Of a DNA stretch of 38,130 nucleotides, positions 37,654-38,130 are shown piece after piece; the stretch's first letter is position 1, and each line of letters opens with the position of its first letter. The notes under the pieces were generated by a model, which was given only the letters and a program-made list of their open reading frames with translations, did no database searches and had not been told where the DNA came from. The DNA comes from Thermoanaerobaculales bacterium (GTDB lineage Bacteria > Acidobacteriota > Thermoanaerobaculia > Thermoanaerobaculales > Sulfomarinibacteraceae), in NCBI GenBank assembly GCA_021107705.1, contig JAIOSJ010000204.1, forward strand, positions 1 through 38,130, written 5' to 3'. The position numbers were made by a program, and so were the translations under genes.

Positions 37654-37799
37654 CAGGACCTCCTCAGGAGTCTGTGCAGTGCATTATGATCCTCCTGCAC
37701 TCTCAAAACCATGCAGGAAACCGACATTTCCATGCCGAAATGCGACACAAATAGGCCAACCAGATTAAACGACCCCGACGAATCCTCTAGCCCGACCTT

Positions 37800-37824
37800 C
37801 TGGTGCACCTGGTGGGTGCACCAG
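37800..37824. repeat. 10-bp-stem inverted repeat
   Basis: CTGGTGCACC (37800-37809) and GGTGCACCAG (37815-37824) are perfect reverse complements with a 5-base loop. First of the series of hairpins. Confidence 0.85.
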
Positions 37825-37841
37825 CGTCGCTTTGTATATGG

Positions 37842-37886
37842 GGCCGGGGAGGCGTTCCAGAAATCTCCAGGGTTGAAGCCCCGGCC
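37842..37886. repeat. 8-bp GC-rich inverted repeat with long loop
   Basis: GGCCGGGG (37842-37849) pairs with CCCCGGCC (37879-37886). Two G-U pairs can extend it outward. The 29-base loop contains AGGGTTGAAGCC, similar in style to REP-type loops. Confidence 0.6.
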
Positions 37887-37889
37887 TTC

Positions 37890-37907
37890 GGGAGCGCGAG
37901 CGCTCCC
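37890..37907. repeat. 8-bp inverted repeat with 2-base centre
   Basis: GGGAGCGC and GCGCTCCC flank GA. It is a near-perfect palindrome of 18 bases, more likely to act as DNA cruciform or protein site than as an RNA hairpin of the usual loop size. Confidence 0.8.
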
Positions 37908-37911
37908 GCTC

Positions 37912-37980
37912 GGCGTTTTCCAAGAGGGACAGACGTCATCGAAGAGGGCGCGGTTATCTTGTCCCTCTTGGGAAATCGCC
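37912..37980. repeat. long imperfect inverted repeat
   Basis: The arm 37912-37931 pairs with 37960-37980 over about 20 positions (GGCG..TTTCC.AAGAGGGACA) with one bulge and at most one weak pair, around a 28-base spacer. It is the longest stem of the right-end cluster. Confidence 0.85.
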
Positions 37981-37990
37981 TCGGCGGCCT

Positions 37991-38004
37991 ACCGCTCCAG
38001 CGGT
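37991..38004. repeat. short inverted repeat
   Basis: ACCGCT and AGCGGT flank CC. Outer bases CGGC/GCCG can extend it across an internal loop. Confidence 0.55.
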
Positions 38005-38040
38005 GCCGATTCTTTGGACGTTCTACCCGTGGATTGCCCC

Positions 38041-38099
38041 TCATAGCTTTTCCCTGGAAAGTTTCGTTTGTGAGAGGCACCCCTGGGAAGAAGCTATGA
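38041..38099. repeat. imperfect inverted repeat near right end
   Basis: TCATAGCTTTTCCC (38041-38054) pairs with GGGAAGAAGCTATGA (38085-38099) with a single bulge. After a T-T mismatch, GG/CC extends it inward. The spacer is about 30 bases. Confidence 0.85.
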
Positions 38100-38102
38100 A
38101 CC

Positions 38103-38130
38103 GCACTTATGTAGCGCGCTACATAAGTGC
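38103..38130. repeat. perfect 28-bp palindrome at the last base of the window
   Basis: The 28 bases equal their own reverse complement with no central spacer; the half-site is GCACTTATGTAGCG. The window ends exactly at the palindrome's end. It lies next to the hairpin cluster and is AT-rich at its flanks. Confidence 0.9.

Follow-up and report, generated by a model that had tools for sequence, protein, structure and literature searches.

A high-copy, multi-hairpin intergenic repeat family in a Thermoanaerobaculales bacterium and its relatives

The hairpin cluster at the contig end

The window, meaning the whole stretch of DNA analysed here (38,130 nucleotides), corresponds to the complete contig C334 of a draft genome of 4.32 Mb, and a cluster of hairpins at its right-hand side reaches the contig end. 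Judged from one conserved protein, Thermoanaerobaculales/Holophagae MAGs of the Acidobacteriota are the closest named relatives. The features of this region are collected in Table 1. The left border of the cluster was placed at 37791/37792, where similarity to other copies (L020, L027 and L029) starts, whereas on the right the copy is incomplete, being cut off where contig and window end. No convincing gene was found over 37792-38130. The open reading frames listed there appear spurious, and homologous copies of the sequence differ through hairpin replacement rather than codon-wise, so that the description of a cluster without a gene, given in the first-pass annotation, holds. A coding sequence over the repeat was rejected, the overlapping reading frames lacking conservation.

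Six strict stems (8-14 bp) and one 5-bp stem are present in the cluster. Stems were regarded as strict when they were non-overlapping, with arms of at least 8 bp and a loop of at most 45, and their number was compared with that in 500 dinucleotide shuffles. The strict stems total 62 bp, while the shuffles gave a mean of 0.17 stems and a maximum of 2; together with the RNA folding energy of the cluster (z = -6.4), this rules out chance. All seven stems listed in the first-pass annotation were recovered at their positions, with one correction, namely that the stem given as 6 bp measures 5 bp. The same annotation held that the stems were far more numerous than expected by chance and named a shuffled-sequence test for this, in which none of the 500 shuffles reproduced them.

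Table 1. Features of the repeat copy at the end of the window
Feature	Position	Strand	Remarks
Window copy of the repeat	37792..38130	+	GGCCTTC end first; covered throughout by other copies
Partial upstream unit	37791..37855	+	R3 covariance match, 27 bits, E 4.6e-4
Order of the upstream unit: linker CCTTC, 10-bp hairpin, then CGTC	CGTC at 37825-37828	+
10-bp hairpin CTGGTGCACC/GGTGCACCAG	37800-37809/37815-37824	+	Inverted repeat I9
8-bp stem GGCCGGGG/CCCCGGCC	37842-37849/37879-37886	+	I15; connects upstream module with core
Core double-hairpin unit, 111 bp	37880..37990	+	R1 123 bits; R3 98 bits, E 1e-19
Outer pair GGCC + GGCC	37883-37886 + 37986-37989	+	Short; closes hairpins 1 and 2
Hairpin 1 CGGGAGCGC/GCGCTCCCG, 9 bp	37889-37897/37900-37908	+	I13
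Hairpin 2 GGCGTTTTCCAAGAGGGACA / TGTCCCTCTTGGGAAATCGCC	37912..37980	+	I2; stem of ~19-20 bp, 28-nt loop; inverted repeat 37916-37931/37960-37975, 16 bp at 94%, extends to ~20 bp
Hairpin 3 ACCGC/GCGGT, 5 bp	37991-37995/38000-38004	+	Read from the sequence
Linker GATTGCC	38032..38038	+	Conserved; before hairpin 4
Hairpin 4 TCATAGCTTTTCCC / GGAAGAAGCTATGA	38041-38054/38086-38099	+	I3; 14 bp with bulge
Perfect 28-nt palindrome GCACTTATGTAGCGCGCTACATAAGTGC	38103..38130	.	Seen at 5 places in the genome

The upstream module with the 10-bp hairpin also occurs in L020, L027 and L032, and the pairing of the stem joining it to the core is partly retained in other copies. In the window copy, CCGCAC stands where GGCAC, the usual partner of the GATTGCC linker, would be. 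Hairpin 4 of this copy is one of at least 10 interchangeable arm types in the family. A perfect palindrome of 28-30 nt (CCGCACTTATGTAGCGCGCTACATAAGTGCGG) was observed at the end of the window and on contigs C238, C70, C77 and C289 of the same genome (G000), and it comes after hairpin 4 at the four places with context read.

Copy number and distribution of the repeat family

The hairpin cluster is almost certainly a truncated member of a dispersed repeat family, whose main carriers form one group of uncultured Acidobacteriota. A BLAST search of the window-end sequence against its own genome returned 48 matches, at about 40 other places, and twenty copies compared together with their flanks contain successive hairpins in which the changes are paired. 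Three covariance models, R1 (the 111-bp core) and the broader R2 and R3, gave 46, 86 and 82 matches in this genome, respectively. With R1, a second genus was represented by four genomes holding 44 to more than 60 copies apiece, and 55 other relatives had none; by the three models, genomes of genus g7 hold 44-113 units. R2 and R3 added a third genus, g2, with 73, 36 and 4 copies, and a fourth, g5, with one copy, and the three models gave no match in the remaining genomes of the order. Overall, six further genomes of the same taxonomic family carry 36-113 copies of the core; together with the own genome they represent three genera. In a sample of 396 genomes of the phylum, matches were restricted to three, i.e., the own genome, one of the third genus and one of a distant family (a single copy). 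Carriers include DAOWGJ01 (113 copies), JAUWTC01 (106), JAOZPW01 (77), JARFRM01 (36) and JALOLD01 (4), and the richest hold 46-113 copies per genome.

The location of the cluster at a contig end could point to an assembly artefact, or to chance clustering. Such an origin is practically excluded, and we count it as already refuted, by the shuffles (0/500) and by the dozens of copies that lie inside contigs, between real flanks, also in independently assembled genomes. No description of the family was found in the open-licence papers searched; as far as this literature goes, the repeat is previously undescribed.

Architecture of the unit

The unit is about 300 bp long and consists of a fixed series of hairpins, with the unpaired linkers between them held constant. 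Starting from GGCCTTC, hairpin 1 comes first and is joined through GCTCGG or CAGCGTCGC to hairpin 2, which has a stem of about 19 bp and a long loop; then follow a linker GGCGGCCT, the small hairpin 3, a linker GTTGCC, hairpin 4 and a final linker GGCACG(C/T)CCCG. The conserved flanks of the hairpins are GGCCTTC, GCTCGG/AGCGTCGC and GGCGGCCT. The arms of hairpin 2 in g2 (CAGCGTGGTCG) have no evident sequence likeness to those in g7 (CCCGGAGGGGC) or in the own genome. The hairpin nevertheless pairs equally well in all three, and the linkers are retained.

The arrangement of units differs among genomes. Facing pairs are common in the own genome, where they form inverted dimers of 553, 554, 555 and 556 bp, and g2 carries tandem units spaced by about 400 bp. 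Single units without a second end make up most copies, including nearly all of those seen in g7 and g2.

Many units of g7 and g2 are flanked by arrays of degenerate hexanucleotides (CTGTCC/CTGACG/CGGTCC, or AGCTGATAGCTGATAGC), located 20-130 bp upstream at L160, L146, L193, L204, L210 and others. Identity at a lag of six near units compared with controls was 0.339 vs 0.290 in g7 and 0.358 vs 0.319 in g2; no such signal was detected near units of the own genome. The association is mild, and the arrays were therefore rejected as a defining part of the unit.

A further module, GGTCTTCGTTCTCGACC...GACCGTCACGGCGTAGC..AAGCCGGACTG, follows the core both in a copy of the own genome (L037:1420-1900) and in L215:2200-2523, the lone core copy of G123, a genome of a distant family. 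This suggests that the module is another mobile repeat nested in the first. Yet another dispersed repeat, noticed through the recurring spurious peptide LTNHYSGHWLLACPVRTKTQ, was seen near some units (L145, L170 and L172).

Conserved pairing and exchange of hairpins

Pairing is very strongly conserved across homologous copies, as was found when the covariance comparison of homologous intergenic regions proposed in the first-pass annotation was carried out. Two alignments were used, one of 21 sequences made independently of the model and one of 98 sequences from three genera fitted to the model. In the former, 11 pairs change on both sides, compared with 0/500 shuffles and 0-5 pairs in slid controls. 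In the latter, 26 pairs vary on both sides (0/500 shuffles), and the covariation score is 0.554 vs 0.131 in shuffles; the slid controls drop to about half of the paired cells. All 19 pairs of hairpin 2 vary on both sides across the three genera, as do seven of the nine pairs of hairpin 1 across copies.

Orthologous loci indicate how these changes arise. In orthologous neighbourhoods of sister species, a unit stands at the same place with TTGATGTTGTCC as hairpin 4 in one and ACAGCCTTTCCC in the other. Three orthologous pairs were found in which hairpin 4, or hairpins 1 and 2 together, differ in both arms, and at these swapped loci the linkers are kept and align, with the remaining hairpins, at high identity. 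Moreover, the same hairpin-4 types recur alongside various hairpin-2 types; one of them, CGGCATTGTG, is common to the own genome and g2. Whole hairpin cassettes are thus very probably exchanged between copies at fixed positions, and much of the covariation therefore reflects cassette replacement and not base-by-base compensation. This has a wider consequence: strong covariation alone is no proof of RNA, as whole-hairpin swapping yields the same signal. A rather doubtful extension is that the linkers serve as exchange sites and the hairpins as cassettes, with a single-strand recombinase or an RNA-templated process replacing hairpins in place. If true, it would account for a fixed architecture maintained while the stems turn over, a modular hairpin-swapping system of a kind not described before.

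The strand that folds

A single transition in a stem produces one of two mismatches, A.C or G.T, and their ratio on a given strand can be used to ask which strand folds. On the + strand of the window, stem mismatches comprise 111 A.C and 33 G.T. The direction is the same in each of the three genera (51:16, 23:9 and 37:8), and by column the numbers are 20 vs 4 (p = 0.0015), although the cells are not phylogenetically independent. Hairpin 4, located by Watson-Crick pairs only, gave 38 A.C vs 8 G.T. A smaller set of 83 cores was near symmetric by column (15 to 9), which the larger three-genus set resolved. The alignment model favours G.U on the + strand, and the A.C bias therefore runs against the method. 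Cytosine deamination, which is biased to the non-template or leading strand, would predict the opposite excess, as the flanking genes lie mostly along the + strand.

A.C on the + strand corresponds to G.T (G.U) wobbles on the complementary strand. The conserved single-strand fold lies, with high probability, on the complement of the + strand, and selection most likely acts on that single strand. A fold of the + strand as a structure of read-through mRNA was rejected because of the A.C excess. Since G.T on the folded strand is tolerated equally in RNA, the strand test does not separate single-stranded DNA from RNA.

Genomic context and mobility

The units are intergenic in 82 of 83 cases, with one overlapping a plausible gene. 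The nearest upstream gene runs along the + strand of the unit at 47 units and against it at 24; both neighbouring genes run along it at 26 units and against it at nine. Clustering of open reading frames around about 80 copies revealed no recurrent neighbour gene. The transposase search used the PF01797 profile only. Proteins with this (Y1) domain occur widely across the order, whether or not a genome carries the repeat, and the search detected none in the carriers G006 and G018 (88% and 79% complete). About 20 Y1 loci were fetched, of which one had a unit within 500 bp (L221) and the next nearest lay at 2.4 kb (L222), with none at the others. A RAYT/Y1 transposase was rejected as the partner, as neither its distribution nor its neighbourhood fits, and no dedicated transposase for the repeat was found by the PF01797 search of carriers and non-carriers.

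Some short genes between units (L036, L118 and L137) resemble, by eye, toxin-antitoxin pairs (HigB/HigA-like, RelE/ParE-like and PIN-domain-like). At L160:2334-2705 (-), a 124-aa reading frame between two units resembles, likewise by eye, a four-helix-bundle protein of the 23S rRNA intervening-sequence type.

Presence and absence of units were compared at orthologous gaps. The unit at G016:C29 (a 448-bp gap) is absent from the corresponding gaps of G012 (93 bp) and G018 (134 bp), and that at G006:C250 (460 bp) is absent from those of G012 and G016 (103 and 133 bp); the R3 model detected no unit at the empty sites. The flanking degenerate hexanucleotide repeats accompany the unit and are absent, like it, from both empty sites. 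At another shared gap, the unit has opposite orientations in G016 and G006. No target-site duplication was visible at the one well-aligned junction, the other site being too diverged. The empty sites are read here as gain by insertion, with clean loss as a possible alternative. Some positions are common to several species, and present activity is therefore unproven.

Interpretation of the repeat

The family is best stated to be a large, REP/BIME-like, non-autonomous mosaic that is mobile as single-stranded DNA, a composite statement to which we give about an even chance. Mobilisation of single-stranded DNA, as opposed to an RNA function, is argued by analogy and would come close to even, if slightly below it. 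The repeat would spread and persist as a non-autonomous element, as proposed for REP/BIME; a trans-acting single-strand nuclease or recombinase would recognise a hairpin plus its linker, and recombination between copies at common linkers would exchange hairpin cassettes. A complex REP array or a mobile element, two of the readings offered in the first-pass annotation, came close, in that the repeat proved to be a palindromic mosaic that lies between genes in many copies and has empty orthologous sites. Its suggestion of the edge of a mobile element beyond the window holds only insofar as the contig end truncates this copy; no gene-bearing element was found.

Against this, a structured non-coding RNA, likewise named in the first-pass annotation and comparable to the ORF-less copies of HEARO/omega-RNA, has perhaps a modest chance. 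Each copy would then be an RNA gene, or the RNA portion of a mobile element, and the excess of A.C on the + strand means that any structured RNA must derive from the opposite one. The strand asymmetry fits such a minus-strand RNA, as do conserved unpaired linkers and covarying helices. However, the hairpin arms are replaced wholesale, the minus strand is antisense to both flanking genes (26) more often than sense to both (9), and no partner gene recurs beside the copies. There is also no Rfam match, permissive thresholds included: covariance models gave nothing near the gathering score for the window end (E <= 5) or for four full copies (E <= 0.5).

The two remaining explanations are both unlikely. 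According to one, the repeat is a MITE, descended from a conventional (DDE) transposon with terminal inverted repeats but devoid of genes, and the 555-bp inverted dimer represents the full element. The constant span of the inverted dimers, their matching ends and the empty orthologous sites agree with this; most copies, however, are single units that lack a second end, neither a target-site duplication nor a related transposase was seen, and double-stranded end binding would not give a strand-specific mismatch bias. The other explanation, slightly less probable still and disfavoured, regards the units as passive, immobile palindromes whose perfection is maintained through intramolecular template switching and which serve a local role (terminator, gyrase or nucleoid-protein site). 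Their intergenic position, mostly downstream of co-oriented genes (47 vs 24), and the unit that sits after a terminator at L160/L165 would suit it, but palindrome correction predicts no strand bias (observed A.C:G.T, 111:33), and empty sites and hairpin swaps between species speak against immobility.

Comparison with known systems

REP/BIME/REPIN sequences with RAYT (TnpA-REP) share with the present repeat a high copy number, intergenic location, hairpins, inverted dimers, mosaic composition, enrichment near gene 3' ends and a single-strand substrate (PMC6006769, PMC3116915, PMC2817692). High-copy intergenic palindromes, often in inverted pairs, are found here as in REP/BIME. The REP/BIME unit, however, is a single hairpin of 20-40 bp, whereas the present one measures about 300 bp and comprises at least four hairpins, and it is the linkers rather than the stems that are conserved in sequence in our repeat. 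The GTAG/GTGG tetranucleotide located 5' of the hairpin foot in REPs is absent from the conserved flanks, and no RAYT gene flanked by units was seen among the PF01797 loci examined.

CGTC-tagged REPs (PMC3733652) resemble the repeat in having inverted dimers and no dedicated transposase, and CGTC directly follows one upstream-module hairpin, as it does in every g2 unit that was read. In cores of the window type, GCTCGG is present and CGTC absent. The stems of CGTC REPs are 8-9 bp long and start with A/T pairs, whereas here the stem is 10 bp with an outer C-G pair in 97/97; moreover, CGTC REPs carry a CCA tail, which is lacking in our repeat, where the hairpin belongs to a larger unit with several hairpins. 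MITEs, for example ERIC, YPAL and NEMIS (PMC3733652), are likewise gene-less, intergenic, foldable and multi-copy, but the repeat differs from them in its single-ended units, its interchangeable hairpins and the lack of a visible duplication. Terminal inverted repeats would be expected at both ends of every intact MITE; here, only some copies of the own genome are inverted dimers, and copies in g7 and g2 are mostly single.

In Acidobacteria and Planctomycetes, high-copy "atypical secondary structures" with a 5' CnGA foot were reported beside class 3 TnpA-Y1 genes, with about 600 copies in Solibacter usitatus (PMC6006769). The phylum, the atypical structure and the high copy number are shared with our repeat. 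On the folded strand, CCGAG precedes hairpins 1 and 2 in the own genome and in g7, though not in g2; this sequence is one base off the CnGA foot of that class (PMC6006769). With PF01797 as the profile searched, no class 3 gene was identified near copies. Judged by their description, these acidobacterial class 3 TnpA-Y1 repeats may be the most promising kin of the family.

Intergenic palindrome families usually consist of one short hairpin, and their folded strand and the diversification of their stems are rarely known. In the repeat described here, three genera have one architecture with entirely different stem sequences, sister species differ in the presence or absence of units, and the bias among mismatches points to the strand that folds. 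It makes the choice between a single-stranded DNA element and an RNA testable, and offers a model for the spread of multi-hairpin sequences with no obvious transposase.
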